NCBI GenBank assembly: GCA_025766275.1
Contig: JAFKAC010000032.1
Location: forward strand, 186,001 to 250,000
DNA length: 64,000 bases
Source of the DNA: Lactarius indigo
Lineage: Eukaryota > Basidiomycota > Agaricomycetes > Russulales > Russulaceae
Direction: 5' to 3'
The translations under genes were made by a program, and so were the position numbers. Shown here one piece after another: positions 1-42,362 of the stretch; positions within the stretch are counted from its first letter, which is position 1; every line of letters begins with the position of its first letter. The notes under the pieces are model-generated. The model saw only the letters and a list, made by a program, of their open reading frames with translations, was not told the origin of the DNA and ran no database searches.

Positions 1-588
1 GTCCAACCGGCGCCGGCTGGAAGCGGGGTGTCCGCTTTTCGATTATTAGCACACACAAGTCGAAACATGCCTCATAGTAACACATATTAGTGACAGGAAG
101 TACAGGGAATATGGATATACAAGGGACGACAAAAGGAACTCAGTGAATGGATGTGGGGGTATGCTTTTATGGTCTGTTGATTGTGAAACAAGTCAATAAG
201 ATGTTTAGAGAGTTTGGATGAAATTGTAATAAGTCCTTACTACTCCAGGAGTTGGAATCAGTGGTCGTGATCATTATTTGATTGAGGGTAATATTCACAT
301 AGAATGAATAGATATAGAAAGGCTATACAAATGTGAAGGGGTTGGAAGATACCATCCCTCATGAATGGACATGACTCGGTGCCTAACCAGCTAATATACC
401 CAAGAATACACCTTGCATTGGCTGGTATCCATATGTGTCCAGTGGATCTATGATTGTAGCAGAGTCGGACACTCCGTCAATGTCACCATATACATACTTC
501 TATCCATCTGAATATATTAACATAAGAGTATGGATATCCTGCAAAGAACTGATATCTATCCATATGTAAAATAATGGGAATGCATGTG

Positions 589-3500
589 TTAGAACAAGTG
601 GATTGATTTAACTTTACAATGCTTTAATGGAGCATCTGTGATTGGGGTGAGGGCCTTAACTGAGCTTCTGGAGAGTTCTTCCCATGCATGCATCTGATAT
701 GATGCATATGCTTGGTGCCCCTTAAGCGAATCCTGTGCAGCAATGGTCATGAGCTTCTTCCACATCTTTGCCTTGGCATGGAAGTATGCAGGGACCCATT
801 CAGCTTCATTATGGATGCTGTGCTGCTCCTCCAACCATCGTTCAAACTGTGCCCTTGCACGGAGCCAATGAACCCTTTCAACTGTTAAATAATTGAGTCC
901 ATCAATATAAGCACTGATGAATATGAGAACCTACAATCATCCATCCATGTTCCATCATCTTCAACAGTGTGGCCAAACCCCCAGATCCAGGATGTTTGCT
1001 TGTTACGCTGTCCTATTGGCTCTGATCCAAGAACCAAGGTTGCTACATGGAAGTCCTCTGCACGTAATCTTGGAAGGTCCTGTAGATTCATTGATGCCTG
1101 TCGGAGACTCCGGTATGCATCACGTGCCATGCTGTATATGCGTGCATGCTCATGGACAGTAGTATCAACACTGTGTATGGCATTCCAAGCACGGGTCTTT
1201 GTCTGCTGTGTGTTAGCAGGTCTAACCTGAGTGCGGAACAGAGCTGACTTGAATCCAAGGGCAAGGCGGATCCTGTGAATGGAATCACTGGCTTGTGCAT
1301 GGCGTAGCTGTACCTCCTTCCTGGCAAGAGATTGGGCTCCATGCTTGACACACCATTCCCATCCAAGGGATGAGGGAAGAAGAATGGGAAGATCTTCTGG
1401 ATTGATGCCATCCATCCCAGATCCATCCAATGCCTGATGAGTGTGATGATGGAAATCATGACCTGAATGATTGTCATCTGTATTATCGGGAGGTCCGAGA
1501 TCATCCACATGGTCGTACTCTTCATAATTACCCAATGGTGATATTGGGGAATCATCTGTGAGTTTCTGTTGGAGGAGGAAAGAATCTCCCTGATGCTCAA
1601 ATATGTCAATGAGCTTCTGGAGGCGACTCCGCTTATTTTCAATGACTTGGACCTCCTCTGTGTTGATCTTTGGACCATATGCCCGTAGTTGATATCTGAT
1701 GGCCAGTCTTCACAGGACATCAGCCAACAGTCACATATACCATTGAAGGGACCAACTGTAGCTCCTGAATCTTTATCCCACAAGAAATCCAAGATGTTTG
1801 CCCATGAGTAGTAATATCTCTACTTTCCTCTGAAATCAGTTGTTGCTGGATTTCTGCACGAGAGGGAGCTAATGATATTCATCAGTGTAGAATAGATTGG
1901 TTTATTGGGTAACAATACCTTTGGATGATGCTGTATCATATATGTCCATTAAAGTAGGGTCTTCATACCTGTTAGATTGAGCATGGTTCTCTGCCTCAAG
2001 CCATCGCTTGGTCTTCTTCCTGAAGCGTGCATTGAGTGTATTGAATGTCTCAGCACTGAGATCTATTCCAGTTTCCATGCGCTTCCACCACTTCAGAAGT
2101 GATGGAACTGGAACATGGATTATTATATTAGAATGTAGCATGGATATGGATGTGACAGACCAATGCGGACCATCTTCTTCCAATTGGAATGGTTCATGTG
2201 TGCATCCAAGACCTCCTGGCGATGGGCCAGGGACATCCCGCGGATACTCCGTGAGATATTATTGAGTGGTGCCCACAATGTCTCAATGATCTCCCCATCC
2301 ACCTGCTTCGCTCCAGGAATATAGCTTGGTGAAAAGCGGGGTAAGCATGAATCTTGATGGCCATGAATATGAAAGAGGCCAATCCCAGTCCGAAGTTGTA
2401 AAGAGCTAGACAGAGATAACTCTGGGCTCTTTTCCACCCTTTCCCTGAAGTGGACACCATATTGGCACATGATGTCATACATAACCAGGGCCACAGGGAT
2501 GTCCTCCATGTTGTAGGAGAGGGCCTTGCAAAGGCTATAGTCCATATTTATTTGCCTAGCATAAGAGCGATGTCATATCCACACCTAGAGTCTTTAAACA
2601 TTGGACATACCTCTCTCCCTTCTGGAAGTCAACTACAGATGTAGGGACAAAGAATCCATGACAGCATGCGGTTGCCCCGATGCCTGTAACATCAAGGTGT
2701 GGACGACTTGAATTGGCCTGTTCAATGGCCCTATATGTGTTACATGTGCTGGGCTATGAGAATATAAGACAACAGTCACTGTCAATAGTATCTGACATAC
2801 CTGGGAAATCTCTTGCCCACTATGCAGGTGAGCCTTATATGAATTGGGATTTGCCATGAAGGCCATCCCTGCCGACAGCGGAACGTCCGCTTCCCCAGTT
2901 CTGCATCTCATATGCTCTGCTGAGAAGTTACCATCCATTATAAATGTTCGGATGAGCTGATTCCTTTGAGCAAGTCAACAATGGGATATTTGACATGTTT
3001 AATGAATGCATACGGTTCATCATTATATCTGTCCTTCCAATCATCAGGTAGATTGATACCTGGCTGTGGACAGGCTGGACAGAATATGGCCATGGATCCA
3101 TCATTAGCGGGGTCCCCGACTTGGAGATGTCCCAGACCATTCTGAATCCTATTCCTTAAATCTCGCCATTGCCTGGATGCTCTCAAGAGCTGTTTGTAGA
3201 GATTCTGTAAATGTTTATCAGTGATACAGTATGTGGTGCTGGGATGGCATTGTAACATACTGGGACATGGTCAGGGAACATCCGATTGGTGATGCTCTGA
3301 AGCTTAGAGTAGTACTGTTGTGCAGTTGTCTTGCACTCCAGGTTGTCAGCCAAGAAGTCATCCAGAACTGAGAAGGTAAATGCAGTCTCAATCTGCTTGA
3401 AGGTTGAAGGAAATATTCCAGCTTGGAGTAGTTGCTCATCATCGGCACCAGCATTGGGGCATATGCAGAAGAGTACATCCATATCAAAGACACCTGTCTG

Positions 3501-4459
3501 ATTGACAATTGTGATCAGTGGATTGCCTGACTTTGCGGTCCGTGTGCGTCTTGTGTTTCCCTCAGAGGGATCCAACACATCCCCAGGAAAGTCATACAAT
3601 GTGTCTGAAATCCCATGCATATCCTCAAGAGCTTGCAAAGGAGGTTGCGGGCCTCCTGAGGAATGGGCCTGCTCCTCCTCAACAGATATTAGTGATGTAG
3701 ACCGAGTGTGTCGGGACCTCCGCCTGCTTGTCTGTGGCTCTTTAGCTGCTTGAACTCCCTGGGTATAGATAAGTGCATATGACATTTCATAGGACTGATG
3801 TATTCATACCTCTACTGTAAGTGGGCATGGCTTTCCATCATGACCCAAACAGAGCTTAAATCCAATTGATATTAATGATATTGGTGCAAAGTGTGTGCCA
3901 GTCCAGCGGGACATCCGATGGAATGGGGATCTTGTATGTATTTGAAGGCAACATTCCTTGCAAAAGTAGTTACCTCCAACACAGTCGGAACACTTGATCT
4001 GCATTGACATGGTGCACATGGAGCATTTTGGGGCCCTTGTCAAACCCTCCATCTCTAGTAACAGGTGAAGATATCTGCTCCGGATGTCTATCCATTGGCC
4101 CATATGTGTCCGCAATGGTGTCTGTAAATGATCAGTATTTGATGGATGATGAAGGGTATTGTGTCGCATACATGTGGTTGGGGTTGTGTGTCATCAAGTT
4201 GAAGGTCTTGCATGTCAGCTTCATATGGTTCTATGGGTTGAAGGGTATGTGACTCCTGAACCCCCTGCGTTTGTTGCTTGGATGACTGCTCCTCAACTAT
4301 TGTAGCTTGGTTTGAAGCCTGGCCTGACTTCTTCTGCTTTGAAGAATGGAATGGGACCTCCTTCACAGTGGTTCGGAGTCCCCGCTTAGACTTTGATGTT
4401 TTAGAGACAACCTCAGAGACATCTCCCATAGGAATGGTAAAGGTGTTCTTGCGAGGCAT
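589..4459 (-). CDS. Gene A: KDZ transposase with CxC2 cysteine cluster
   Basis: Spliced transposase gene of about 1,100 residues with roughly nine short GT-AG introns. The ATG is at 4459-4457 and the TAA at 591-589. The N-terminus is basic and low complexity. A CxC2-like cluster follows at about 4060-3830, visible as CSMC, CSDC, CKECC and a distal CLGHDGKPCP. The KDZ core lies at about 2950-2120: MDGNFSAEHM, LDVTGIGATACCHGFF, DFQKGER, then YDIMCQYG, FHIHGHQDSC and DGEIIETLWAPLN, which supply the expected acidic catalytic residues. The C-terminal third (1900-589) is helical. The product should cut and join the element ends in the nucleus. Exons join in frame by eye and I saw no stop in them. 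Copy 2 has a nonsense codon at residue 29, so this copy is the likely functional source. Confidence 0.85.
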
Positions 4460-4668
4460 GATAGACAGTTTCAATGGAGTTAGGAGGATATGGATGATAG
4501 CAATTGGGACAGCATCAATCCTTTCACGCATTAAATACATTTACAACACCTTGGATATTCTACACATTGGAATATTGGGCTCGCTGCACAATCATACACC
4601 TGAAGAATGTGTACCCAATTCTAATCTGAAACTGTGGAGTGTATCTGATAGGAATACCATCATCTGTT

Positions 4669-5276
4669 CTATGTCATTTCGGGTGCTCCGAAACTACCGC
4701 TACCATTATCAACACCTTCAGATCCTGATGCCATCTCTGATGCATGTGGGGAGTGACCTTGATACTGTCCATCTTGTGTTTCACTTGTCGTTTGTGACAT
4801 ATTGATTCCCTCTGTTTCACATAGTGCCCTTACCATAAGGGAGATATCCTTAAGATCCATGCACATCTCCTCTGTCTCCAATATGAGGTCTGCATGCTCC
4901 TGACCATGTCAGACATGTTAAGTGGTTCCATATTATCGTGTACATACCATATGGTCATTGGGCAGACTTGCATGGTCCACATGGGCAGGGGAATGTGGTT
5001 CGATGGAGTCAGGTTTCAGGTTAATGGTTTCAGCATTAGAATCTGATCCATACATGTCATCTTCATCAAATGACATTGCATCGGAGGAAGAGCTATCAAC
5101 TGGATCGGAAAACATGGTGGGTGGATGTTTGGAGTATGCTTGGGGAGTCCGCCTATCCCTCAAGTGGGTTTTCTGATTCTTATGGTGGGTTCCTGGGATA
5201 GTGGCAATTAGTGAATATTCATGGAAGTACCTGAAATGGAGGGCATACGTTTTACTTTGGATGTGGATGGCTGCAT
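4669..5276 (-). CDS. Gene E: small acidic element-encoded protein, unknown function
   Basis: A small spliced gene just upstream of the transposase on the same strand (about 210 bp gap). The ATG is at 5276-5274; a 46-nt first exon is followed by introns ending in CCCAG and GTCAG. The product is about 175 residues, rich in Ser, Asp and Glu (DPVDSSSSDAMSFDEDDMYG), with a short helical stretch (ILETEEMCMDLKDISLMV) that could form a coiled coil. I do not recognise a family. Its reading frame is kept in KDZ-2 (41546-42153) with only a few substitutions, which supports it being a real gene. A role as transposase partner is possible but unproven. A TATA-like run lies just upstream at about 5306-5313. 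Confidence 0.6.
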
Positions 5277-5922
5277 GGTGTATAATGTAGTCTAGCTGTT
5301 ACACGGTATAAATATCCCCTAATTGAACTATCATGTGTGGAACACAGTTACATGTTTGCCTCATATGTAGGAGCATTGTGTATGCCATCTAGTATCATGC
5401 CGGACTCCCCATCTAATCGCACAACTATCTCCCATACGTGTTTCGCGAATCCCTGTAGCATTACATCTAATACAGGTATCACAATACCCACCAAACCACA
5501 TACGGATATCCCATGCATTACAGCGGGGTCCCCGCCACACTGTACGCATATTTGTAACAAATATATTTGATTGTTTGATGCAGATGTCACATAGACCTTC
5601 AGATATACCACAAGGAAATAACAAACATATTGAAGCAGGGTTCTGGACTGTTGCATATGTAAAACATGTTTTATGTGTACCAGGTAGCAATTGTAATACA
5701 GTCCCACACAACGCTTCAATCAGCATATCCAATTGAGCGGACCTCCCGACACATCACATGACACCTTCCCATCATACATTGATACAGGGACCCCAAACTG
5801 TTGCATATGGAAAATGTAAATCTAGATACAGTCCCACACGACACGTCATCAGGTATCCCCCAATACCACATGATGCTCTCCTATTCATAGAAGCGGGGAC
5901 CCCGACACATCACACGTATCAC
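5277..5922. repeat. Intergenic spacer with ~156-bp imperfect tandem units, each carrying the 11-bp palindrome
   Basis: No gene is seen. Related blocks recur about 156 bp apart: a ctgttgcatatg stretch, then acagtcccacac, then the palindrome followed by acacatcac. The two clearest copies put palindromes at 5738-5748 and 5894-5904. A third palindrome lies at 5524-5534. The same layout is kept in KDZ-2 (about 40870-41540), where one unit has an extra 18 bp. The spacer lies between gene E (leftward) and the 3' end of gene B, so it probably holds the promoter for the A/E side and a cluster of binding sites. Confidence 0.55.
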
Positions 5923-5927
5923 GCCTG
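5923..5927. repeat. Target site duplication of gypsy-1, left copy (gcctg)
   Basis: The bases gcctg here are repeated at 13750-13754. The uninterrupted site is seen on the other strand in KDZ-2 near 40880, which has a single gcctg between cac and cttc. That proves both the insertion and its 5-bp duplication. Confidence 0.95.
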
Positions 5928-6436
5928 TGTTACGATACGGACTTGGTGACTCATTATACACGACTCATGACCGGTTATGACTACGGTCCGGTATCAGTAT
6001 TAGTCATGGACTCTTACATCGCATCAGTCAGCATAGTAGTTCGCATGTGATTGTGACTCATGTATGACTCATTCCTAGGATAGCTGTACTAGGGTTCGAG
6101 CTAGTTACGCTATTGGTTATTTACTGTTCCAGCGGCGCTTTAAAGCCCGCGTGTATCTGTATAAATAGTCGACTCGGAAGACCAAGAGTCTCCATCTTGG
6201 TCTTCTTCAATCCACCACTTGACTCGTCCTCTATTTGCCTTAGTCTCGGACTAAGTGTGCTTCCACTTGTATCCATCTATCGGATACTCCTTCTTCACCT
6301 TTAGCTGCAGCGTGTGCCTGAGTGCCCCTGTTCAGCTCGCGTTGGGTTGACACGTGATCCCCATTCGCTTACCTTTCGCTAAGTCGATTACGCCTCTCTC
6401 AAGTCCAAGTCGGACTGACGCCGGTGGAGCGTAACA
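5928..6436 (+). repeat. gypsy-1 5' LTR
   Basis: Starts TGTTACGATACGG and ends GGAGCGTAACA. It carries the promoter and the sequence that becomes the self-primer. I found no difference from the 3' LTR. A 63-codon open frame at 6113-6304 occurs in both LTRs and is not a gene. Confidence 0.95.
6160..6167 (+). promoter_or_regulatory. TATA box of gypsy-1 LTR
   Basis: TATAAATA lies 34 bp before the segment atcttggtctt (6194-6204). This is the right distance for transcription to begin at or just before that segment, which would make it the RNA 5' end and hence the self-primer. An inverted copy (aagaccaaga) lies just upstream, so the DNA can also form a hairpin here. Confidence 0.65.
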
Positions 6437-6438
6437 TT

Positions 6439-6449
6439 AAGACCAAGAT
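6439..6449 (+). other. Primer binding site, self-priming (Tf1-type)
   Basis: AAGACCAAGAT begins two bases after the LTR end and is an exact 11-nt complement of atcttggtctt at 6194-6204, near the predicted RNA 5' end. No tRNA-like TGG start is found at this position. This matches self-priming in Tf1 of fission yeast, where the first 11 nt of the mRNA prime minus-strand synthesis. gypsy-2 has the same arrangement. Confidence 0.75.
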
Positions 6450-6456
6450 CCTCATC

Positions 6457-8430
6457 GTGGCGTATTCGACTAGAGACCAGTGGACGTCCTTTCGTCCCTA
6501 TCATATTGAACGACGAGGAGATCGCAACGTACCCACAAGATTCCTAGGAGCAGCTCAGTGGAGAGAAAGAGGAGAAGACACCGGATATTTCGTAGAATTT
6601 AACGGTCCTAACCGTTTTCGACCCGTTGAGTTTAACTTCGAGCATCTCTGTTGGGTCGAGGTTACTTGGAACCCTATAGATCATCGCTGGGACATCGTAC
6701 GACCAGCAGGAAGAAATTACAATTGCGACATCGACGTGCGAGAGCTTAATAGCCGCGCAGACTACGGTCCCATTGACGGACAAGCACAAGAACACACAGA
6801 CGAAGGAATCAGTGGAGAAGAAGCGTCTGAAAGTCAGTCGCCAAGCAGAGGAACAACACCAGCAGAAGAAGCCAGTCTAGGAGCAATTGGCGATCATATT
6901 ATACAACGAACTGAGTCCCTTACCATTCACCAACCCGAACCCGAAGTAATTCACATTCATAGCCCAGCAGCCGCAATGGCAACTGCCACTATCACACACG
7001 AAGAGCTGCAGCTCACCATAGAAGCAAGGGATCAGATAGCCCTAGAAGAACAAAGACGCATCGCCGAAGAATCAAGAGCTAATCTAGCTCCTATTAATCC
7101 CTACACCGGCCACCGAATGACCGAAGACGATGTAGCAATCCATCGTGCAATTGGGCCCGATGTCGCTGACCCCCCCAGCGGAGGAGGAGGACCTCCTAAC
7201 GATCTACCAGGGGGAGGAGGAGGACCCCCATCTCGAGGACCCGGATTTGGGGGATTCCCCGGAGGATTCCCCGGAGGATTCCCAGGGGGACCACCAGAAG
7301 GAGGACCTCCGGGAGGAGGATTACCAGGTGCAGGTCCTATTGTTCCCCCTCCAAGTAACAAGTTAGCTGGCGAAGCACCTACAGTATTCGATGGAGAACG
7401 CGCCAAGGTGGAGGCGTTCCTCACCCAATGGCACGTCTACTGGGGCATGAATGCCGACGAGGGCATCATGGCGACTCCATATCGACGTGCCCTACTTTTC
7501 CTATCATACATCAAAGGCGTTAACGTCAGCGAATGGGTATTGGCGATGCTTACCTGGCTTAACGGCCAGATACAAGCCGGCATACCTCGAACTAGTGAAG
7601 GACTATGGAACGAAGTCACGCGCAGCTTTATGCAACGTTTCCGCAATACAATGGAACAGGAACAAGCTCAATACGAGCTCAAGAAAGGAGTCAAGATGAT
7701 TGGGGGCAATTTAGATGAGTATTGCACCCAATTCGAACAGTTAATACGCCGCGCTCAGTACAGGCTTGACGATCCGCAAACGCTCGACTTATTCGCAAGC
7801 GGCTTACCAAAAGACCTATATGAAAAGGTCTACACCCTTGACAACCCCCGCAACTACCGCGAATGGAAAGAAGCAGCCACTACCCGGCAACAACAGTATC
7901 TTCACCTAAAAGCGGTATTGAATAAGGGAGTCCCTCCAGGACAAGGACAAGGAAGACAACGACAACAACGACAATGGCAGGGACCACCGAGAAGTTCGTG
8001 GCAACCAAGGAATTTGCGAGATCCAAACGCCATGGATACCTCGGCGGACCGAATCAGAGGGCGACTCGCAGGAGCCGAAGACATACTCGCTCCTCGCCCT
8101 CCATACCGACCACGAGGAGGATTCCTCCAAAGAGGAGGAGGACGTAGTAACCCAAGGCCAGTCACATGTTATAACTGTAGAAAGGACGGACACATGGCCC
8201 GTGATTGCAGACAACCGCGCGGAGAGTACCAACCCCAAGCATCAACTAGTCGATATGTTGACACCGACTATCATCAACAAGAACCCGAGGTCGCTACCAG
8301 GGCGGTCCAAGACGTACCCCCTCAACAGCGCGCCAGCGATTGGCTTAACGGAGTGGCAGGAGAATCAGACGACGTAAAAGACATTATCCTCCAACAGTTG
8401 TGGAAGAAGGAGGGTTTTCAGGACGCCTGA
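6457..8430 (+). CDS. gag: gypsy-1 Gag polyprotein (probable GUG start)
   Basis: Gag of about 657 residues that builds the virus-like particle. A conserved N-terminal region (about residues 7-120, including YFVEFNGPNRF and NSRADYGPIDGQ) precedes an acidic linker, a Gly/Pro-rich stretch and the retrotransposon Gag core (VFDGERAKVEAFLTQWHVYW to about 7920). A CCHC zinc knuckle, CYNCRKDGHMARDC, lies at about 8169-8210. The frame is open from 6358 but has no ATG before 6976. The GTG at 6457 has A at -3 and G at +4 and is matched by a GTG at the same place in gypsy-2, so I chose it as the start. The last codons contain the slip site into pol. Confidence 0.85.
   Translation: MAYSTRDQWTSFRPYHIERRGDRNVPTRFLGAAQWRERGEDTGYFVEFNGPNRFRPVEFNFEHLCWVEVTWNPIDHRWDIVRPAGRNYNCDIDVRELNSRADYGPIDGQAQEHTDEGISGEEASESQSPSRGTTPAEEASLGAIGDHIIQRTESLTIHQPEPEVIHIHSPAAAMATATITHEELQLTIEARDQIALEEQRRIAEESRANLAPINPYTGHRMTEDDVAIHRAIGPDVADPPSGGGGPPNDLPGGGGGPPSRGPGFGGFPGGFPGGFPGGPPEGGPPGGGLPGAGPIVPPPSNKLAGEAPTVFDGERAKVEAFLTQWHVYWGMNADEGIMATPYRRALLFLSYIKGVNVSEWVLAMLTWLNGQIQAGIPRTSEGLWNEVTRSFMQRFRNTMEQEQAQYELKKGVKMIGGNLDEYCTQFEQLIRRAQYRLDDPQTLDLFASGLPKDLYEKVYTLDNPRNYREWKEAATTRQQQYLHLKAVLNKGVPPGQGQGRQRQQRQWQGPPRSSWQPRNLRDPNAMDTSADRIRGRLAGAEDILAPRPPYRPRGGFLQRGGGRSNPRPVTCYNCRKDGHMARDCRQPRGEYQPQASTSRYVDTDYHQQEPEVATRAVQDVPPQQRASDWLNGVAGESDDVKDIILQQLWKKEGFQDA
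8412..8418 (+). promoter_or_regulatory. -1 ribosomal frameshift heptamer GGGTTTT
   Basis: Read in the gag frame this is G GGT TTT, a canonical X XXY YYZ slippery site four codons before the gag stop at 8428-8430. A -1 slip leads into the pol frame as GGG TTT TCA. The same heptamer sits at the matching place in gypsy-2 (58444-58450). The following conserved ctgggtgaggg may be part of a stimulatory structure, which I could not fold. Confidence 0.7.
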
Positions 8431-11400: not shown

Positions 11401-13208
11401 ATCCTCGCGCTGATTGGACCGATAGGCCTTCCCCTATCCCACAGGTGTCACTAAGACTTGACCAATTCAAGCAAGCACGGCAACGCGCCTTTTCTTGCAT
11501 GCTCCGGGCGCAAAAGTCATGGGTCAAGCACAAAGACACGCCCAGATTCAAGGAAGGAGACCTCGTGTGGCTAGAAGGACGCCACTTACGCACTCATCAA
11601 CCAACCGCAAAACTAGCTGCAAAGCGCCATGGACCATTTAAGGTCATCCAGGTGATGTCTCCTGTCAACTATCGCCTTGAACTTCCCACACAGTGGAGCA
11701 TCCACGATGTTTTCCACATAGATCTTCTCACACCTTATCGTGAGACACCCACGCACGGACCAAATTATCAGCGCCCACCACCTGATTTGGTTGATAACGA
11801 AGAAGAATATGAGGTCGAGAAGATTCTAGACTCTCGGCGGTTCGGCAGAAGACGTCGGCTCCAATACCTTGTCAAATGGAAGGGCTATCCAGACTCAGAC
11901 AATCAATGGATAGATAAGGATGACGTATTTGCCGATGAAGCCGTTCGGAACTTCAAACATTCAAACCCCGACAGAGAGACGCATATAAGGATGGCATTCT
12001 GTCGTGATAAGTCCCCATCTCCCATTCACTCCATGCCCTCCACTCGACGCAATGACCAGCTCGCACTCCTCTCTACCCTCGTCAACGACTCCTCCGCCAC
12101 GCTTGTTGACCCCGACACCACCAACAACACCGCAACCACTGGAGTTGCAGTTGGAGGCCGTACCCCCATGCAGCATGAGGAAGACGGCCCTATCACTAGT
12201 GAAGAACTGCACCAGACACTGCAACGATTCCCTATGCCCGTACAGGGAACTCTCGACGACGATCCAGCAGCAACTCAACCAACACCTCCGCAACCAATGT
12301 ACGCCCTTACAAACCCCGATACCGGTGAGCCCGAAGTCTTCCTCACCGAGGACGAGCTCTTTCGGCTTCAAGCAGCTGTCCCGCGCGGTGAAACCGCCCG
12401 ACGCCATGAAGAAGTACGAACAAGAATGGAAGGAGACGGCGGCGCGGTGGCAGCGGGAGCAACTGCATATCGCCGCCTGCCGACGCCGAATGATGAAGGA
12501 GCGGAAGGAGTACTGGACGAAGATGAGGATGAAGACGAGCTTAGAGACCACTACCCCATCAGGCATGCATTTCTTAACCATGAATTCTACACTGAAGATC
12601 CAGCCGCCACTCCCTACCTCGTCGACGCAGCGGGGGGGCCTCTACACAGAGGACGAGTCGCCGTGGCACAAGCGGCTCGTTATACACCAATGGGCGAACG
12701 AGACCCCGCAACCAGGGCCGTCGTCCCTGAGGGGTTCCGGGTCAATCGAGGACCCGATTACATTCCGTTCCCGATCAAGCTCCCCAACGGACCGACGGTA
12801 CAAGCCTCCCACGTACAGGTTATCCGAGGAGGAGACCCCTTCGTACTCGGACTAGCTCCGGGGTCGGGCTTCCTTTACGGTAAACCCCTCTACGCCACTC
12901 CTCACCTCCCCAAGAACAACCGCGCATTCATCCCCCACGAGGAGTACTTTATGCTCCGTGACCGACACCCCACCGACCTACTACTAATGCGCATTGGGGA
13001 TGTCACACTCACTCAGGAGCTACGCCGGTTCCGGCAGTTTGCCTTTGCCGAGGACCAGTTAGAGAAGCGCATTCGGCAATTGCAGATGGAGAGGGAGATG
13101 GTGACGGCGGACAAAAAGGACAGTCTTTACCGTTTGGAGCGTGCTAACATATTGGCAAGGATGGAAGATGAAGCAGAACGGATGAGGCAGGAATCGGTGG
13201 CGGATTAG
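8412..13208 (+). CDS. pol: gypsy-1 Pol polyprotein: protease, RT, RNase H, integrase, chromodomain, C-terminal extension
   Basis: About 1,600 residues in the -1 frame relative to gag. In order: aspartic protease (ALVDSGATHCF, about 8546-8580); reverse transcriptase with PLPLISDL, KLDVRWGYNNI and catalytic YMDDIGIAT (about 9640); RNase H (EVDASGFATGAVLL, IYDLELLAIVKA, SDHLNLQYW); integrase HHCC zinc region ending CAECQRHK (about 10850) and D,D,E residues in VDFITKLP, ISDRDPRF and TDGQSERTNQW; chromodomain YLVKWKGYPDSDNQW (about 11865). A further ~430 residues follow the chromodomain. They are conserved in gypsy-2 and gypsy-3 (VPEGF, ASHVQ, YGKPLYA) and end in a helical segment with DSLYRLERA. 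All catalytic motifs are intact. Confidence 0.93.
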   Translation, partial: GFSGRLNPSAWVRAVNCNSVIMTRYRSMRVPVSIRTSYAMADIRALVDSGATHCFMKPSFAKRMGLGTKLLDIPKKIWNIDNTENKSGRITHYTDVDVQTKGIHKEIRFLITDIGNEDIVLGYPWLAIYDPHIKWSQAAIHEDMLPIIIRSTNPYVKTTPIVAATTVQNDDYEVVHSCVITDEQRQQFEEGCQIRATATDLAIAAQQYTTKAELPLEYREFERLFSEEASDRFPPSRPWDHAIEFKPGTADAIDCKIYPMTQEEDKKLREWIDEQLKKGYIRPSKSPYASSFFFIKKKDGKLRPVQDYRKINAVTIRNQYPLPLISDLITDLSNAHIYTKLDVRWGYNNIRIKEGDEEKAAFKTRYGLFEPTVMFFGLTNSPATFQTMMNFIFRDVIAKHEKRGTTIRVYMDDIGIATGLNHSLPDHIEAVKDVLRVSAEHDLYYKLEKCLFHSPRMDYLGVILEKGVTRMDPVKISGIKDWPTPTKVKDVRSFLGFCNFYRPFIRGFATKARPLNKLTRKDTEWHWGTEEEKAFQDLKTLVTSEPVLAHPDLTQQFELEVDASGFATGAVLLQRKADGKRHPIGYYSSTLNEAERNYDIYDLELLAIVKAFRHWRPLLAGSPHKIKVFSDHLNLQYWKSPQKISRRVAREVLELSEYDFEIHHIKGTSNGRADALSRRPDYDQGENDNEGVTVLPENVFARATTLEEPRHPHWRPEILPVEMTPEHPIYEQDTAKLKPWVDAHKLKDIEGTWYKDGRRVVTGGIHDKRTIIAAHHDSPVYGHPGIKRTLQLTERHYWWPQMKNDITDYVKGCAECQRHKVNLRPIRAPLQPIYPKPEALPFETIAVDFITKLPISRGYDSILTITDHDCTKAAVFIPCNEEITAEGTAALYVSHVFPRFGLPSRVISDRDPRFASKFMREICKILGISQNISTAYHPRTDGQSERTNQWLEQYLRFWVNERQDDWVRYLPMAEFTHNNWPNETTRESPFFLLSGFNPRADWTDRPSPIPQVSLRLDQFKQARQRAFSCMLRAQKSWVKHKDTPRFKEGDLVWLEGRHLRTHQPTAKLAAKRHGPFKVIQVMSPVNYRLELPTQWSIHDVFHIDLLTPYRETPTHGPNYQRPPPDLVDNEEEYEVEKILDSRRFGRRRRLQYLVKWKGYPDSDNQWIDKDDVFADEAVRNFKHSNPDRETHIRMAFCRDKSPSPIHSMPSTRRNDQLALLSTLVNDSSATLVDPDTTNNTATTGVAVGGRTPMQHEEDGPITSEELHQTLQRFPMPVQGTLDDDPAATQPTPPQPMYALTNPDTGEPEVFLTEDELFRLQAAVPRGETARRHEEVRTRMEGDGGAVAAGATAYRRLPTPNDEGAEGVLDEDEDEDELRDHYPIRHAFLNHEFYTEDPAATPYLVDAAGGPLHRGRVAVAQAARYTPMGERDPATRAVVPEGFRVNRGPDYIPFPIKLPNGPTVQASHVQVIRGGDPFVLGLAPGSGFLYGKPLYATPHLPKNNRAFIPHEEYFMLRDRHPTDLLLMRIGDVTLTQELRRFRQFAFAEDQLEKRIRQLQMEREMVTADKKDSLYRLERANILARMEDEAERMRQESVAD
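12052..12855 (+). CDS. Overlapping +1 ORF inside gypsy-1 pol
   Basis: A 267-codon frame in +1 relative to pol, opening at an ATG just after the chromodomain. Homologous frames with the ATG at the matching spot occur in gypsy-3 (25957-26772, minus) and gypsy-2 (62045-62548). The shared core is a charged, probably helical block: DAMKKYEQEWKETAARWQ, then EQLHIAACRRRMMKERKEYW. In this block the +1 frame appears better conserved between gypsy-1 and gypsy-2 than the pol frame. I do not recognise the family. It could be an accessory protein translated separately or a relict exon read in another frame. No expression signal was identified. Confidence 0.5.
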   Translation: MTSSHSSLPSSTTPPPRLLTPTPPTTPQPLELQLEAVPPCSMRKTALSLVKNCTRHCNDSLCPYRELSTTIQQQLNQHLRNQCTPLQTPIPVSPKSSSPRTSSFGFKQLSRAVKPPDAMKKYEQEWKETAARWQREQLHIAACRRRMMKERKEYWTKMRMKTSLETTTPSGMHFLTMNSTLKIQPPLPTSSTQRGGLYTEDESPWHKRLVIHQWANETPQPGPSSLRGSGSIEDPITFRSRSSSPTDRRYKPPTYRLSEEETPSYSD

Positions 13209-13228
13209 TGAGGTGGGCCTCACTCCTG

Positions 13229-13240
13229 AAAAGGGGGTGA
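13229..13240 (+). other. gypsy-1 polypurine tract
   Basis: The purine run gaaaagggggtga immediately precedes the 3' LTR and is where plus-strand DNA synthesis would begin. It is identical next to the gypsy-2 3' LTR and (inverted) next to the gypsy-3 LTR. Confidence 0.85.
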
Positions 13241-13749
13241 TGTTACGATACGGACTTGGTGACTCATTATACACGACTCATGACCGGTTATGACTACGGT
13301 CCGGTATCAGTATTAGTCATGGACTCTTACATCGCATCAGTCAGCATAGTAGTTCGCATGTGATTGTGACTCATGTATGACTCATTCCTAGGATAGCTGT
13401 ACTAGGGTTCGAGCTAGTTACGCTATTGGTTATTTACTGTTCCAGCGGCGCTTTAAAGCCCGCGTGTATCTGTATAAATAGTCGACTCGGAAGACCAAGA
13501 GTCTCCATCTTGGTCTTCTTCAATCCACCACTTGACTCGTCCTCTATTTGCCTTAGTCTCGGACTAAGTGTGCTTCCACTTGTATCCATCTATCGGATAC
13601 TCCTTCTTCACCTTTAGCTGCAGCGTGTGCCTGAGTGCCCCTGTTCAGCTCGCGTTGGGTTGACACGTGATCCCCATTCGCTTACCTTTCGCTAAGTCGA
13701 TTACGCCTCTCTCAAGTCCAAGTCGGACTGACGCCGGTGGAGCGTAACA
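13241..13749 (+). repeat. gypsy-1 3' LTR
   Basis: The 509-bp partner of 5928-6436, with TG...CA ends, followed at 13750-13754 by the gcctg target duplication. Confidence 0.95.
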
Positions 13750-13944
13750 GCCTGCTTCAAATACAAGTCATCATATATTCGAAACGAAGGCCCCTTAGTC
13801 ACTGGATCACATGGTGATTATTACGTTGATATGGTCACATGCAAACAGTCCTGACACATCATATATTTCGACCCTCAATGGGCCGGACCTCCCGAACATG
13901 CGTTTACAGAATAGTATACATCATTTAAATAGAAACACTCCATT

Positions 13945-15682
13945 CTAAGCCACAGGACCAGCCGATGATGACCCACCAGATATTCCAGATGGGGTCAGAC
14001 GTCCCCCTGAGGCAACGCTCTCCCCTGTAATGTGGATGAGCCTGTGTTTCCGATTCAGATGATATAAGTGCTTACCTGATGGTTGGCGAGAGCGGCTTGG
14101 GGGTGCACTTGAAAGGGAAGAAGGAGGCCGAATGTCAGAGAGAGTGAGGCCAGACATATGTGCTCCAACTGATGAGGTCGACTGGACACCAGGGGATACT
14201 GAGCGACGATTGGTGGGGGGCATCCCGACACCAGGAATCGATGTCGATTCGATACCCTGGTGAGACAGGAGTTTCCCAACCATAAGCCGTGTGTCATGCG
14301 AATCCTGGCGTGTGTTTACGACCTCAAATAGCACACGGTCTACTGTCTGAGTGACATCACCAAGTTTCGATGTCAATGACTCCACTTTGCGCTCCAGTGC
14401 ATCAACGCGGGAGTCCCCGAAGCTTCCTACTAGGTGTGTGATGCATGTGGGTTTCGTTTACGCTTGCAGAAAACAGGTGGGACGTACCCGGGGACCCCGC
14501 TCCCATCGATGGTGTTGATCTGGCCTCCATTGCACGATGCAGCGGGATGGCCCACGTCGCAGGGGGTTCACATGGCTTGTGCCTCTGCGCACACTTCACA
14601 CATGCGATTGACCGCTTATTGGCCTGGGCTTTGCATTCAGAATCCCCAAAATGGATGCAGGGGCCACAGCGGTCCTACAAGTAGTGCACATATACATCAG
14701 ATCGTTATTTGGATGCAGGAGGATGGAATAAGAATACTTACATTCCCATAGGCAACAATATCACCAGCATCCGTACGCTGACGTTGTGTGGGTCGAGGGG
14801 GAGATGCCTGCTCCACTTCGACACGTGGAACGGGGGGGTTCTGATGTGGGACCGTTTCGGATGCTTCTCCCGGGTTGCCCGGTGAATCGCGTTTCGTTCC
14901 TCGCAGCGCATATGGAGCAGTGTGGCGTTTGGATGGAGCATCGGCCGGGCGGTCCGACGAACGTGTCTGTATGGCACGTGCCTTTACTGTGCCTCGTGTA
15001 TTGTGTACGGGTGGGGGGGTGGCTGGGGGGTCCGGGGGTTCCGGGGGGTCCGTGGAGGCGGAAGGAGGGGCAAGTGTCAATCGTGAAGACGACGACTGGG
15101 ATGGGAGATTGTCAACTGTAGCTGTGCATGAGGATGTGAATAGGTATGAATCGATACAATATATCTGACACACATTCTGAGGGCATCTGTGGTATGGTGT
15201 TCTCTTCGAGCCACCACATCTTGCTCGGATGGAGGCCATCCAGATATGAGTTCAGATCAAGGGATGAGAGTTTGAGGTGCCAGTCCGGGTTCTCCGACGA
15301 TACATATTCACAAAGCGTAGTAATGTATTCAGTTGTTAGTATGAACCAATCAGGGTAGCGGTCCTCTATTGCAGCTGACTGCCACTCGGTCCCAATGACC
15401 TGGATGATCGGATGGACACGGGGGGTCTTGGAATGTATCCCATAGCCTGCAAATATCGAATTAATGGTTCTCTGAATAGCATACCATTAGATACATCGCA
15501 TATGCGTTGAGGATATTAAATCGACTCACCACTTCTTGGTTGATCTTTGTATCCATTATGTCCAGCTCCATTGGTGACGGACCAGTCTCCTCCACACGTT
15601 TCATGGCAGCCATGAACTTAGCTGCTATGGTGAGCAACTGAACTTCATGCTTTGTCAATTCGGATGGGCCTTTCCTACCCAT
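13945..15682 (-). CDS. Gene B: Zn2Cys6-like cysteine cluster plus coiled-coil protein
   Basis: Spliced gene, ATG at 15682-15680, stop at 13945, about 480 residues. Exons in order: a helical N-terminus (MGRKGPSELTKHEVQLL); a folded segment with EWQSAAIEDRYPDWFIL and SKMWWLEEN; a long Pro/Ser/Arg linker; then at about 14690-14590 the cluster CGPC-x7-C-x10-CVKC-x6-C. That spacing (C-x2-C-x7-C-x10-C-x2-C-x6-C) is one residue off the classic Gal4-type Zn2Cys6 pattern. The next exon starts DALERKVESLTSKLGDV, a coiled coil suited to dimerisation. The tail is Ser/Pro-rich. It is transcribed divergently from gene C across about 260 bp. The inferred role is binding the element's CGG palindromes. The homologous gene in KDZ-2 is frameshifted. 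Confidence 0.68.
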
Positions 15683-15941
15683 TGAGCGTGGGGGTGTCTA
15701 ATGTGAATGATAGCGAAGTCACAGATGGAAGCGCCTCAGACGGAAGCACCTTGAAACGTTTGGGGGTCCCACTATTGATTATCGATCTCCTCTGGTATCC
15801 GGGAACCCCGAAATCTGATTTAGGAAATTTGGAAAATATATATCCGATTGATCCGAAGATCAAGCGATGACTGTGGTGACTAGATATGATATATATCTAC
15901 GCAGGTGGCGAGCTCCAATATCCCACAGAGACCCCTCCAGT

Positions 15942-16889
15942 ATGTCTGATACCTCTCGTGGTTCGCGTTCGCGATCTCGTGCAGCTGCGGGAACCCCGCA
16001 GTCTCAACAAGCGTCACCAAAGCCTCAGTCTATGGGCCCTCCATCGAAACAGCGTTCTGAAGCATCCGGGGTGTCCACTGGCTTTGAATTCCTATCCAAG
16101 GTACCGTCGCCTGTCGTACCTATTCCATCTGGGCCACGTCTTTCGGATACCCCGCGGGTGCGTAACTGTATTTACATATTCGACAGCACTAACAGTGTGT
16201 TGTATAGGATGATGGCAAGCGCAAGAAGAGGCGCACACCCTCTCCACCCAAAGACTTTATGGATCGCATCCCACTCTCACAACGTGTTATCCGTGAACCC
16301 ACTGTGGTCGCTAAGCCTGTATCACCAGCACCTGAGATCATCTCTATTGATGATCAACCAAGTGACGCTCCAACTGCGGGTGCCCCGACAGGTTCCCCAA
16401 CGTCAGCAGGACTTGCTCTGAGCGTATGTGATAATTACCCATCGTCTATAGCTTATCTGATGCATCATATAAAAGTCACAGATAGCTGATACGATGGACG
16501 TCGATGATCCAGGGAGTTCTGTTCAGCGTGCAATCACCCCATCGCAGTCGGACGCCCCGAAACGCAAGGTACGTATATACAATTACATACGACTATTCTA
16601 TTAATCTGTACAAATGGTCAAGGCCGCTGGGAGGTCCGCCCCTCGTGCACGAACTGGGGGGATACCCCCATCCACCCGTACAATCAAGCATCGAATGGGC
16701 ATCACCATCCCTGCGTCTCCCCTCCCTGAGGACCTCGGAAACGTCGAGTCCAGGATTGAGAGATGCAAGCTGACACTTGCTGATGTGTGGGATGAGCTCA
16801 CAGAGCTGCGGGGTCGAGTTCAAGCAATCAATGACTCAATCCTGAAGACTTTGATTGATCTGGAGAATATGGCGAAATACTTGGAGTAA
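15942..16889 (+). CDS. Gene C: basic, coiled-coil protein of the KDZ element
   Basis: Spliced gene of about 260 residues with three introns (first at about 16159-16208). The ATG at 15942 opens MSDTSRGSRSRSRAAAG. Exon 2 has a clear nuclear localisation signal, GKRKKRRTPSPPK, then a Ser/Pro-rich stretch. Exon 3 is short (MDVDDPGSSVQRAITPSQSD). The last exon is basic (SAPRARTGG) and ends in a coiled coil from LGNVESRIERCKLTLADVWD to NMAKYLE. It points away from gene B and probably shares its promoter region. I do not recognise the family. A nuclear partner of gene B or of the transposase is a reasonable inference from location, signal and coiled coil. The KDZ-2 copy is frameshifted. Confidence 0.6.
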
Positions 16890-17935
16890 GGACTGTAACT
16901 ATGTAGCACATGTATTGTGATCGTCTTGCATGTGTCGGTAACAATATCACGCATTGAGATCATGTTTCGGTACCATTTTGGTACCAATTTGGTACCATGT
17001 CGGAGTGTCCGCAACCATTAAATACATCAGTTATGTAACGTGTCTGACATGCGGACTTCCCACGTCCCTTTGTTCATATTTACCTTTGATATTTACCTTT
17101 GTCTCTTAAGATGACGTGATATGTACATGTCGGGAGGTCCGGCGTATCAGATACGCTTGATGACATATTAGTTCAGACCATGTCAAAACACTACTTGCCG
17201 CATGAATCACTAGGAACTATCTACGATGTCCATATCAAACGCGTGCCACAGATGGGATGTTTCAGATCCCCAGTTTGATGTATGGATGTATGGGAGAATG
17301 CCACGTGATATGTCAGGTGGCCCAACACACCTGAAATATCGATGACATGCTGTGCAGGACCGAATCTGATACGTACAATGTGTCGGGGTCCCCGATGCAA
17401 CAGGTGAGACATCGTCATATGATGTACTATGTGAGCAGGAGGCACGATCTCCTTGCACAAGCATGTCTAGCCAAATATGAAATATATGTGAAGCCATGCA
17501 TCATATTCACACCCCCTCCTTGATGTATAGGCTCAGTACCATTTCTCATTGATATACATCCTATTCTCCATGTAGATAGCTGTCACGATTCATCAAAAGC
17601 GGGAGGTCCGCTCTTGAGGTACAAGCATATCTAGCCCATGCGTGAAACATATGTGAAACCATAATTCATGTCCATATTTCCCATCCATGTCATGTGGCAC
17701 CTCTCACCCAGATCCGTATTCAAACCCATTGAAACCTGTTATATTATCTTACCACATATATTAACCTATGTGTCCCTGTTTTACCCTCACTATATCCCGA
17801 TTGCCAGTGTCCATATTTTGTTTTCTGATCCAACACAACCAAACTACTGTCATGTATTTAAACTACTTCATGCTCAATATATCTATCCACACACACCGTA
17901 TCCATATCCTCTGATCACCTTTGATTAATATCCCC
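16890..17935. other. Intergenic region between genes C and D with four palindromes and a diverged repeat
   Basis: No gene is seen. CGGRNNNYCCG sites occur at 17001, 17131, 17384 and 17600, three of them preceded by ATGT or GTGT. A block containing caagcatgtctagcc and atatatgtgaagccatg (about 17460) recurs in diverged form about 165 bp later. The matching stretch of KDZ-2 is interrupted by an LTR remnant at 37180-37666. Confidence 0.55.
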
Positions 17936-19973
17936 ATGCAGAACGAGGACATCACTTACTCTGGCTCTGGCGGAGAGTCCGAGATATCACAGAGTCAAAG
18001 AGCACAGTCTGGTGACACAGGATTTATCATTACTCCTGAAGATGCAGATGTATTGCAGGAATATCTTGAAGAGTTCCAAGCTGCTGATACAAGCCTTCGT
18101 ACCAGGATAATTGAGAAAGCCATGGCCCAGTTATATCTGCTCCGCCCTTCTAGTGCACCATTTGATAAGAAGGTGGCCACAAAGGTGGGCTTCATTTATA
18201 CAGTGACGGATATATTGCTCATTTCAGATTTCAGAAAATTCAGAAATGGTTTTATAACCACTACATCCGCCCCAGGCGTCAATATATCAAGTTCACTCGC
18301 AAATGGTCTGCCAGGAATGCATTCTATCACCTGCACCGTGAGGAAGTCTTGGAGCGTGCTAGGGAGGACTCTGGGACAGAGCCAGGGAACCCCGCATTCC
18401 TGGGGGCCCTTCAAGATGCAACCACTGCTTTATGGAATGATGTATCCCCTAAAGATCAAAGGGAGTATGTAGATGCTGCTAAGGAATGGTCAGAGAAGAC
18501 TCCACCAAAGCATATTCAATCCAGGTACGCAAATATGTATCACCTTGGATCCATTTCTCTCATCTCTTCTATACAGAATGGCATCTTCTATGCGTGAGCG
18601 GATCATCCAAGACTTTCAAAGTCAACTCTACAAGACATGTGGTATTCGTTCCATTGTTCTCACAGCATATGAGGGTGAAGACAACAACCTCAAGATTGGC
18701 TTGTAAGTCATCCAAAAATGTATCCTTAATCTGTACTGACCATCAATTGATGCAAACCAATTTCAGCAATGATGTGAACAGTGTATTGCAGGATGGAAAG
18801 GACTTTCGGAAATTCTGCCCAGACTGGAAGAGTGCTGCCCTCTGGGAGCAGTGGACTCAATTTGGATTAAAGTGCTTTGCAAAAGGTTTGACAAGCTTCT
18901 TATCCCAGTGAGTGAATATCATTCATGTACATTCTAGAGACTGTCCAGGAGCATCCAAAAAAGGACAACTCAAGGACAATCCAATCCCCAATCCCCCTTG
19001 TATTTGATGCAGATGGATGTCCGGAGCTTCCGACAGTTACTCAGCGTCATGGATATAAAGCCAAGATTGTTCAGTCATTGCTCAGGGATTATTGCACTGC
19101 ACATATCCGTAAGCCATTCTTTTAATAAATGTGTATCAGTATTTAATATGTCGGAATAAGGTTATGTCACTGGAAAGCCAACACTGACCATTCCATGGGG
19201 ATCATTGGTCAAGGATCCATCTTCCTGGATTCGTGATGAATGTATTCCAGATGGGTTTGAGTGGAAGGACCCATCTAAGATCCAGATTGGAGAGGTCTTT
19301 CGTCTACTGTACCACTGGAGTGACAGGCAAGATAAAGGCATTGACCCCTTGATGTGGGTATCAACGTCCCCACTCTTTAGTAATTTGGAAGATTCCCCAA
19401 GGCCTATGCGGAGTGTCCGAAGGGCTCGAAAGCAGCAATCACCAGCATCTGATGAAGAGTGCTTCATTCTTCCAGCTAGTCGGGACTCTGATCAGGAGGA
19501 TGACATTACTGATGCTGAAGATTCTTCAGATGATTCATCCAGGAATGATGATTCATCTGACAGGACTGATCCATCTGAGGATGAAGTGGCTATGAGGTCT
19601 CCACCCTTGAATATGTCTTATATACAGGAGGACGCTTGTCCTGGTGAGTCCGATTGTTATTGGGTTACCCTCAACTTATCAATGACAACATTGCATGTAG
19701 ATGATGATGGAGGTCCCAGTCCCACCTCTGCTGGACACGATTATCTGAGCATGAATAGATCTTCATTTCCAGGTTTGCATCCTATCCACATTACATCCGG
19801 CACCACCAATCATTCATCAATGCACAGAAATGGCAGGACCATCACACTCTCCTCAGCTTCAATGGAAAGAAATGCAAGTTGGCCATCAGCCTCATGTAGC
19901 AAAAGGGAAAGGGAAAGAAATCAAACGAACTATCAAGGTCTCAGAGAAGGTCAGGTTAGTGGCTAACAATTAG
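17936..19973 (+). CDS. Gene D: large spliced gene of the KDZ element, function unknown
   Basis: About 540 residues from roughly eight short-intron exons, ATG at 17936, stop at 19971-19973. The N-terminal part is acidic and helical (DADVLQEYLEEFQAA). The central part has KWSARNAFYHLHREEV, LWNDVSPKDQREYVDAAKEW, YKTCGIRSIVLTAY and WEQWTQFGLKCFAK. A later part has TIPWGSLVKDPSSWIRDECI and DGFEWKDPSKI. The C-terminal third is an acidic Ser/Asp tract followed by a basic tail (AKGKGKEIKRTIKV). The overall layout resembles a protein group that is greatly expanded in Agaricomycetes, often near transposons, for which I know no function. It is not a TET/JBP oxygenase: the expected HxD iron site is absent. 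The copy in KDZ-2 looks identical. Confidence 0.62.
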
Positions 19974-20519
19974 CCCCTTCCCCAGACTTCTGATCACTTC
20001 ACAGGAATATGGATACTGGTCGGGGTGCAGCTAAAGTCCATCCTGACATCTGGAGCATGAATAGATAGATATAAACATGTATATAGTCATGCTGGCGGAG
20101 TGTCCGCCCATAGCTTCAATGATGTGCCCTGAACCCATATGGATATTGGTCAACTAATTGTTTACAAACTGGTTGTGTATTTCATCGAGGATATCCCTGC
20201 TGGATGCACTTATATGTTAGTCTCTTCAAACCCCTTTTCATTTGAACAGTATTTCTACATCTCTTTGTTGTATATGAGTATGACCCTCAATCAAATAATG
20301 ACAAGACCCACTGGTTCCTACTCCTGGAACACTCATGGTCAAGCTCAGGGTTCACTGAAAATTCATCCGAACTCCCCATACATCCTATGGACTTGTTATA
20401 CTGTAAAGGTATCCCCCAACATCCATTCAGGAGTAACCTTTGGTCATTGCTTATATATCCACATTCCCTGTACTTCCTGCCACCAATATGTATCACAATG
20501 AGTCATGTATTGACTTGTT
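19974..20519. other. Subterminal region of KDZ-1, right side
   Basis: No gene is seen. It contains the palindrome at 20096-20106. From about 20250 it shows weak inverted similarity to the first ~420 bp of the window (for example the ctcaatcaaataatga stretch), extending the terminal repeat in diverged form. Confidence 0.5.
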
Positions 20520-20688
20520 TATGCTAATAATCGAAAAGCGGACACCCCGCTTCCAGCCGGCACCGGTTGGACTATCAATTACGTCGGATTCTCCGACGTC
20601 GGCCGGCGCCGGCTGAGTATGAATTACAGAAGATTCTCACCGTCGGTTGGGGGTATCAATTACATAAGCCACCACTATCCATTGGCTG
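20520..20688. repeat. Right terminal inverted repeat of KDZ-1
   Basis: A 169-bp terminal repeat ending CCATTGGCTG. It matches the inverted left end of KDZ-2 (33428-33597). Inside are nested palindromes built on CCGGCGCCGG and GACGTCGGA/TCCGACGT, plus two CGGRNNNYCCG sites (20539, 20585). Comparing all three visible ends, identity stops exactly at the terminal CTG, which fixes the element boundary. Confidence 0.88.
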
Positions 20689-33427: not shown

Positions 33428-33597
33428 CAGCCAATGGATAGTGGTGGCTTATGTAATTGATACCCCCAACCGACGGTGAGAATCTTCTGTAATTCATACT
33501 CAGCCGGCGCCGGCCGACGTCGGAGAATCCGACGTAATTGATAGTCCAACCGGCGCCGGCTGGAAGCGGGGTGTCCGCTTTTCGATTATTAGCATAA
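33428..33597. repeat. Left terminal inverted repeat of KDZ-2
   Basis: It pairs with 46764-46933. Arms 33501-33513 and 33550-33562 are exact inverted copies of each other (CAGCCGGCGCCGG), and between them ACGTCGGA and TCCGACGT form an inner stem at 33517-33535. CGGRNNNYCCG sites lie at 33521 and 33567. Confidence 0.9.
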
Positions 33598-34142
33598 ACA
33601 AGTCAATACATGACTCATTGTGATACATATTGGTGGCAGGAAGTACAGGGAATGTGGATATATAAGCAATGACCAAAGGTTACTCCTGAATGGATGTTGG
33701 GGGATACCTTTACAGTATAACAAGTCCATAGGATGTATGGGGAGTTCGGATGAATTTTCAGTGAACCCTGAGCTTGACCATGAGTGTTCCAGGAGTAGGA
33801 ACCAGTGGGTCTTGTCATTATTTGATTGAGGGTCATACTCATATACAACAAAGAGATGTAGAAATACTGTTCAAATGAAAAGGGGTTTGAAGAGACTAAC
33901 ATATAAGTGCATCCAGCAGGGATATCCTCGATGAAATACACAACCAGTTTGTAAACAATTAGTTGACCAATATCCATATGGGTTCAGGGCACATCATTGA
34001 AGCTATGGGCGGACACTCCGCCAGCATGACTATATACATGTTTATATCTATCTATTCATGCTCCAGATGTCAGGATGGACTTTAGCTGCACCCCGACCAG
34101 TATCCATATTCCTGTGAAGTGATCAGAAGTCTGGGGAAGGGG
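33598..34142. other. Subterminal region of KDZ-2, left side
   Basis: No gene is seen. It mirrors 19974-20519 of KDZ-1, including a palindrome near 34012-34022, and appears identical to that stretch. Confidence 0.5.
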
Positions 34143-37666: not shown

Positions 37667-37727
37667 GTGATATTGTTACCGACACATGCAAGACGATCAC
37701 AATACATGTGCTACATAGTTACAGTCC

Positions 37728-38677: not shown

Positions 38678-38937
38678 ACTGGAAGGGGTCTCTGTGGGAT
38701 ATTGGAGCTCGCCACCTGCGTAGATATATATCATATCTAGTCACCACAGTCATCGCTTGATCTTCGGATCAATCGGATATATATTTTCCAAATTTCCTAA
38801 ATCAGATTTCGGGGTTCCCGGATACCAGAGGAGATCGATAATCAATAGTGGGACCCCCAAACGTTTCAAGGTGCTTCCGTCTGAGGCGCTTCCATCTGTG
38901 ACTTCGCTATCATTCACATTAGACACCCCCACGCTCA

Positions 38938-42153: not shown

Positions 42154-42362
42154 AACAGATGATGGTATTCCTATCAGATACACTCCACAGTTTTAGATTA
42201 GAATTGGGTACACATTCTTCAGGTGTATGATTGTGCAGCGAGCCCAATATTCCAATGTGTAGAATATCCAAGGTGTTGTAAATGTATTTAATGCGTGAAA
42301 GGATTGATGCTGTCCCAATTGCTATCATCCATATCCTCCTAACTCCATTGAAACTGTCTATC

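Follow-up and report, generated by a model that had tools for sequence, protein, structure and literature searches.

Dense, family-specific DNA words in KDZ transposons of Lactarius indigo and a candidate element-encoded reader

Two related transposons of the mushroom Lactarius indigo, KDZ-1 and KDZ-2, carry many copies of one short palindromic word, CGGRNNNYCCG (R, purine; Y, pyrimidine; N, any base). Both lie in a 64,000-nucleotide stretch of the 90.3 Mb genome, hereafter called the window. We lean toward the idea that the word is a family-specific address label, read by the element's own predicted dimeric Zn2Cys6 protein and probably serving anti-silencing. The basis seen in the sequence is the array itself, its CGG-N5-CCG geometry, the words of other families, the conservation of words between families 171 and 153, the decay of CpG dinucleotides, and a six-cysteine exon in eight of ten elements. 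The genome holds at least 175 KDZ domain matches. For comparison with the window family, a single element, complete or in large part, was drawn from each of eight additional domain groups, which are named by open-frame length; C1 denotes group 207.

As judged from matches to the KDZ transposase domain and to the CxC2 cysteine cluster, the window elements are members of the KDZ DNA transposon superfamily. The features that define them and their sites are as follows.

1..5927, minus strand: left part of KDZ-1 (transposase side), with 14 CGGRNNNYCCG and a rule-breaking site at 2669
24, 466, 1102, 1487, 2241, 2879, 3108, 3712, 3907, 4374, 4680, 5524, 5738, 5894: exact CGGRNNNYCCG sites of the KDZ-1 left part
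2126..2572, minus strand: transposase exon, C-terminal half of the KDZ domain (PF18758, E 2.4e-29)
3186..3803, minus strand: transposase exon, CxC2 cysteine cluster (PF18803, E 4.7e-20)
5928..13749, no strand assigned: gypsy insertion within KDZ-1, with 0 CGGRNNNYCCG
13750..20688, minus strand: right part of KDZ-1, with 22 CGGRNNNYCCG from 13884 to 20585
33428..46933, plus strand: KDZ-2, of the KDZ-1 family in inverse orientation, with 23 CGGRNNNYCCG

The CGGRNNNYCCG array

The window contains 61 exact copies of CGGRNNNYCCG, compared with a mean of 1.88 and a maximum of 7 among 100 shuffles. KDZ-1 holds 36 of them, KDZ-2 holds 23, the gypsy insertion none, and the rest of the window two (57223 and 61209). 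A preliminary description of this DNA had reported 34 matches in KDZ-1; the array is real, and the count is 36. The same description held that every spacer begins with a purine and ends with a pyrimidine, a rule obeyed by 36 of the 37 CGGN5CCG sites of KDZ-1 and broken at 2669 (CGGTTGCCCCG). Its estimate that chance would supply well under one match agrees with first-order Markov shuffles of KDZ-1, which yield 0.2 on average.

Masking of tandem repeats leaves the signal in place: 34 sites in KDZ-1 (mean 0.23 and maximum 2 in 100 shuffles), 23 in KDZ-2 (0.25 expected), and 12 of 13 in C1 (0.16 expected), an element on another contig that is 83-84% identical to the window family in the longest aligned pieces. 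The spacing is equally exact. When CGGNkCCG was scanned over KDZ-1 for k from 0 to 15, k = 5 gave 35 sites and every other value at most 3. Non-KDZ sequence of the window has no such array, with 3, 1, and 4 CGGN5CCG in controls of 7.7, 12.7, and 16.9 kb. Genome-wide, CGGRNNNYCCG occurs 4762 times versus 4444 for the reversed control, a slight excess only. Thus, the special feature is local density.

The sites lie in exons of all frames and in the termini, as had been described. Specifically, 10 of the 37 KDZ-1 sites fall in the 11 tested open frames, mostly that of the transposase, with codon phases represented 5, 2, and 3 times, and three (24, 20539, and 20585) lie inside the terminal inverted repeats. 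The outer spacer bases at the 37 sites vary independently (GT 11, AT 10, GC 9, AC 6, TC 1), and the inner spacer bases are complementary in only 8. Independent outer bases and mostly non-complementary inner bases suggest two separately read CGGR half-sites rather than a hairpin.

Could the array be a mere by-product, whether of base composition, of a CpG mutation bias, of tandem duplication, or of a repeated peptide or hairpin? We regard this as very improbable. KDZ DNA is CpG-depleted (observed/expected ratios of 0.36 and 0.65 in the two parts of KDZ-1), and in families 154, 160, and 152 a large share of the words comes from tandem arrays; both facts would suit such an origin. Set against it are the shuffles, the exact spacing, the tandem masking, the use of all codon phases, the non-complementary arms, and the fact that CpG decay destroys sites. 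A hairpin or RNA structure is ruled out because the arms outside CGG/CCG are unpaired, a repeated peptide because three codon phases are used, and tandem duplication, as the source of the window-family array, by the repeat masking. These results rule out a by-product in three families: that of the window, 171, and 153.

The window family is also strongly enriched in two further words, CATCCA and ATCCAT (KDZ-1 has 39 of each, versus about 6-7 expected; regions 1-5927, 13750-20688, and 33428-46933; loci L039 and L040). CATCCA could be a CpG-decayed form of CATCCG, perhaps an older second word.

Words of other families and the turnover of sites

Other KDZ families favor other words. In a matrix of five words across 13 stretches, with tandem repeats masked, CGGN5CCG occurs 35 times in KDZ-1, twice in family 171, and not at all in family 153. 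The word TCGGCAG/CTGCCGA occurs 56 times in each of families 171 and 153 (expected 1.69), once in KDZ-1, and two to four times in controls. Each of these two families has 73 such words before masking, and the 56 that remain split 30 and 26 between the strands. The gypsy insertion and two other window stretches have one to four copies of the CGGN5CCG or TCGGCAG words. By these counts, density in the word's own family and rarity elsewhere, the mark of a VANC-type motif, are found here as well. Distinct from the scattered TCGGCAG, the flanks of family 171 (L041:1-840 and L042:7800-8940) contain tandem repeats rich in TGGGCCCA, with 20 copies in 18 kb.

Family 154 favors CTCGGAC, with 37 copies unmasked and 6 scattered copies after masking (0.35 expected). 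Its tandem arrays (L044:4279-4928, 5452-5529, and 6658-6885) have units of 16, 23, and 14 bp with only TCGGAC in common; they look as if the repeats were selected for that core. Families 160 and 152 give weak scattered signals. Most TCACGGA of family 160 comes from tandem arrays, its 17 seed matches all lying within 566 bases, and half of the 20 CATCCG of family 152 is likewise tandem. For that reason, neither family is counted as a clear case. Elements 358 and 537 (8 and 10 kb compared) have few words, 4 CGGN5CCG and 5 CTGCCGA.

Over 7454 aligned columns, families 171 and 153 share 80% identity, and their words outlast the background. Of 25 aligned words of family 171, 16 are intact in family 153; 9 are lost, and 10 are present only in family 153. 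Among other 7-mers, 1868 of 7530 are intact, and among those matched for GC and CpG content, 118 of 501 (24%). With sites assumed independent, the binomial P for word retention is 2e-5 to 4e-5.

Within the window family, change is dominated by CpG decay. KDZ-1 and KDZ-2 are 98.6-99.9% identical in three long aligned pieces; each of the 24 CGGN5CCG of KDZ-2 has an intact counterpart in KDZ-1, and 14 of 15 within-site substitutions between the two are C>T or G>A. We also compared 12 copies of the family (12 of the 15 matches gave loci) over 4180 columns containing 19 sites, and here 79 of 83 core-CpG changes are transitions. The preliminary description had named loss of sites between related copies, with protein sequence kept, as an outcome that would speak against it, and such loss is in part what we find: the 12 resident copies keep from 7 to all 19 of the 19 sites.

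The site CpGs of resident copies show no consistent sign of protection from mutation, the direction of the difference varying between families, and protection was rejected. Specifically, 83 of 850 site CpGs changed versus 288 of 3965 others in the window family (p 0.016; the copies are not independent), 13 of 73 versus 22 of 286 between KDZ-1 and KDZ-2 (p 0.014), 16 of 386 versus 238 of 3541 in family 171, and 16 of 312 versus 154 of 2904 in family 153. Non-CpG word bases changed at 0 of 451 positions versus 288 of 43142 elsewhere in the window family (p 0.13), 0 of 780 versus 278 of 36509 in family 153, and 30 of 966 versus 1488 of 54801 in family 171; these figures do not establish that word bases are constrained in resident copies. 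The notion is that resident copies would be CpG-methylated, as their mutation pattern suggests, with sites rotting like other CpGs, and that jumping lineages would keep or regain their sites.

A predicted reader and its possible action

The candidate reader is a Zn2Cys6-like protein encoded by the elements themselves. Its parts in the window are as follows.

14420..14674, minus strand: Zn2Cys6-like exon of KDZ-1, candidate site reader, with six cysteines (CX2CX7CX10CX2CX6C)
39953..40147, plus strand: KDZ-2 copy of the Zn2Cys6-like exon, a six-cysteine match
15139..15483, minus strand: likely upstream exon or exons of the zinc-cluster protein, whose translation resembles the corresponding part of the C1, 152, and 160 elements

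Exactly one six-cysteine exon is present in eight of the ten elements (KDZ-1, KDZ-2, C1, 171, 153, 154, 160, and 152), and all six cysteines are invariant in the eight aligned rows. The two elements with no cluster exon, 358 and 537, are both old, CpG-depleted copies. The exon is absent from the gypsy insertion, two other window stretches, eight unrelated loci, and 2.18 Mb of shuffled sequence. Zn2Cys6 clusters have the cysteine spacing CX2CX6CX5-12CX2CX6-8C; the first loop has seven residues, not six, in the window, C1, and 154 copies. At the level of sequence, the six-cysteine spacing of Zn2Cys6 proteins is found in eight of ten elements. No match reached the Pfam Zn_clus cut-off of 21 bits, the best being 14.8 bits in family 171, and the window pieces gave no match; a PDB sequence search with the family 152 cluster returned no Zn2Cys6 chain.

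AlphaFold models the window cluster with a predicted local distance difference test score (pLDDT) of 83-90 over residues 1-40, and a full-length relative with 39.5. Foldseek with the window model gave weak matches in which the top three rows are Leu3 and the VIA-align rows are the Ppr1, Hap1, Pho7, Gal4, and Leu3 domains. The window cluster is tentatively predicted to adopt a Zn2Cys6 fold, modeled confidently over about 40 residues with weak structural matches, and a helix after the cluster may, at low confidence, serve dimerization. The earlier suggestion that Zn2Cys6 dimers reading inverted CGG half-sites might be involved fits this predicted reader. We note that in families 160 and 152 the zinc-cluster proteins belong to database clusters of 7 and 11 member sequences, respectively, a hint at recent spread of intact copies.

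An address label read by an element protein had been proposed at the outset. The family words, the retention between families 171 and 153, the cluster exon in eight of ten elements, and the weak fold matches support that proposal indirectly. As we envisage it, the element-encoded Zn2Cys6 protein would bind its family word as a dimer on the paired CGGR half-sites. Bound protein would tag the element from end to end, with many sites jointly needed. The outcome would probably be loss of CpG methylation or of silent chromatin, by analogy with plant VANC proteins.

Other proteins could be considered as readers. The transposase, via its CxC2 zinc cluster, might bind the sites for assembly of the transposition complex or for choice of ends, and the three sites within the terminal inverted repeats suit that function. 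It is nonetheless unlikely, given that sites run throughout the element, exons included, with no obvious gain for end recognition; moreover, we know of no CxC2 cluster that reads CGG pairs. A host Zn2Cys6 protein might instead read sites that the element has gathered as promoter or enhancer parts, as many host regulators of this class in fungi read CGG pairs, in line with PMC5559640. We consider this quite unlikely, as the words depend on the family, eight of ten elements have their own cluster exon, and the window word barely exceeds its control genome-wide. Finally, the element's own zinc-cluster protein might use the sites for self-repression, copy counting, or copy pairing instead of anti-silencing. 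The sequence evidence for this role is the same as for the anti-silencing label; we hold it to be improbable, the argument against it being a weak one, that the TET/JBP genes next to KDZ matches in families 171 and 153 are more in keeping with a contest over methylation.

Known systems, TET/JBP genes, and element layout

The closest parallel to the anti-silencing label is the VANDAL/VANC system of Arabidopsis. There, a short motif is dense in its own family only, related families have other motifs, and growth occurs via tandem arrays (PMC5735166). The KDZ families resemble it in own-family motif density, in family-specific motifs, in tandem growth (here, family 154), and in having a non-transposase element protein as candidate reader. 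VANC-like tandem placement is present in family 154, partly present in families 171 and 153, and absent from the window family. Unlike VANDAL/VANC, the reader here is Zn2Cys6-like, sites occupy exons and spacers, and the window word, palindromic and with CpGs, is scattered rather than tandem. The VANC domains DUF1985 and DUF287 are not among the Pfam matches of the element pieces scanned, and the in-frame location of 10 of 37 KDZ-1 sites departs from the mainly non-coding placement of VANC motifs. VANC binding and demethylation are experimentally shown (PMC5735166, PMC10398659), whereas reader binding and demethylation in the KDZ families are inferred. Since protein family, non-coding restriction, and word type differ, the KDZ system may work like VANC, and we do not file it as VANC.

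Fungal Zn2Cys6 factors provide a second comparison. Such factors recognize CGG pairs at characteristic spacings: N6 for Ppr1, N10 for Put3, and N11 for Gal4. Paired CGG is shared with the sites of Ppr1, Gal4, Leu3, Hap1, and Pho7, and TCGGCAG and TCGGAC resemble the Pho7 site, but the spacer is N5, the protein is transposon-encoded and below the Pfam cut-off, and each target has tens of sites. In the cluster here, moreover, the basic residues lie mostly in the second cysteine loop, unlike those of fungal Zn2Cys6 factors. Zn2Cys6 proteins typically read CGG pairs as coiled-coil homodimers, and the Pho7 site is of the TCG(G/C) type (PMC5559640). Plant CACTA/Spm elements are alike in repeated short sites. 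The CACTA/Spm protein TnpA reads such sites and is linked to methylation; those sites are subterminal, whereas the KDZ-1 sites span the whole element.

The genome contains 39 Tet_JBP matches, and comparison of the two match lists puts 37 no farther than 12.5 kb from a listed KDZ match, the exceptions being C101:345288 (22 kb from a KDZ match) and C262:222485 (no KDZ match listed). In families 171 and 153, TET/JBP genes adjoin the KDZ matches, and none of the 39 lies within KDZ-1 or KDZ-2. Any demethylation in the window family, which has no TET of its own, would thus have to occur passively, be carried out by the host, or depend on an activity borrowed in trans. The contigs that bear TET/JBP matches include C46, C237, C79, C95, and C50.

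A 2025 survey of TET-bearing Kyakuja/Zisupton elements of mushrooms speculates that the mushroom-type TET acts without target specificity, and describes Kyakuja families with CA...TG termini and no terminal inverted repeats; the passages of that survey consulted here mention neither a word array nor a zinc-cluster partner (PMC12730594). The KDZ elements studied here have in common with those the KDZ transposase, the CA...TG termini, and, beside families 171 and 153, TET/JBP genes. The window family differs in having no TET match and in having terminal inverted repeats. Word arrays offer a possible route for targeting mushroom TETs, and with one protein, an 11-bp site, and a spacing rule, the array and its candidate reader make the targeting of KDZ-borne TET/JBP oxidases a testable question.

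We tentatively extend the proposal to all KDZ families, a possibility that we hold to be less likely than not. Each family would have its own Zn2Cys6 reader and its own CpG word, together forming an exchangeable code. TET-bearing families would aim oxidation at themselves, TET-less families would use the reader alone or borrow an oxidase, and fungi would have converged on a VANDAL/VANC-like strategy. If so, the code, written through exons and spacers, would account for how a TET carried by a transposon locates the element it belongs to. The address label itself, if true, would mean that plants and fungi independently arrived at transposons that single out their own DNA through the density of a motif. 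Its readers would amount to a collection of DNA-binding modules that differ in their words, and a regulatory code of this kind, running across coding exons, would be rare. Among the titles and abstract beginnings listed in searches of the open-licence PMC library, none reports such arrays in KDZ elements, and the word "subterminal" does not occur in the two KDZ papers whose text was searched.

Several features complete the layout of the elements. Terminal-repeat alignments place the left end of KDZ-1 about 116 bases outside (left of) the window, and its right end is at 20688. The terminal inverted repeats of the KDZ-1/KDZ-2 family are about 350-470 bp long and 78-81% identical. KDZ-2 is split at about 37169-37666 by a stretch resembling a long terminal repeat; its apparent ends lack a 7-10 bp repeat, sought as the target-site duplication (7-8 bp in the KDZ superfamily), and its termini, CAGCC...GGCTG, are intact. 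A third gene region, which gave no Pfam match within the curated cut-off, resembles sequence of other families in translation.

17915..19513, plus strand: third gene region, oriented against the transposase and similar in translation to C1, 171, 153, and 154 (39 residues in 154)

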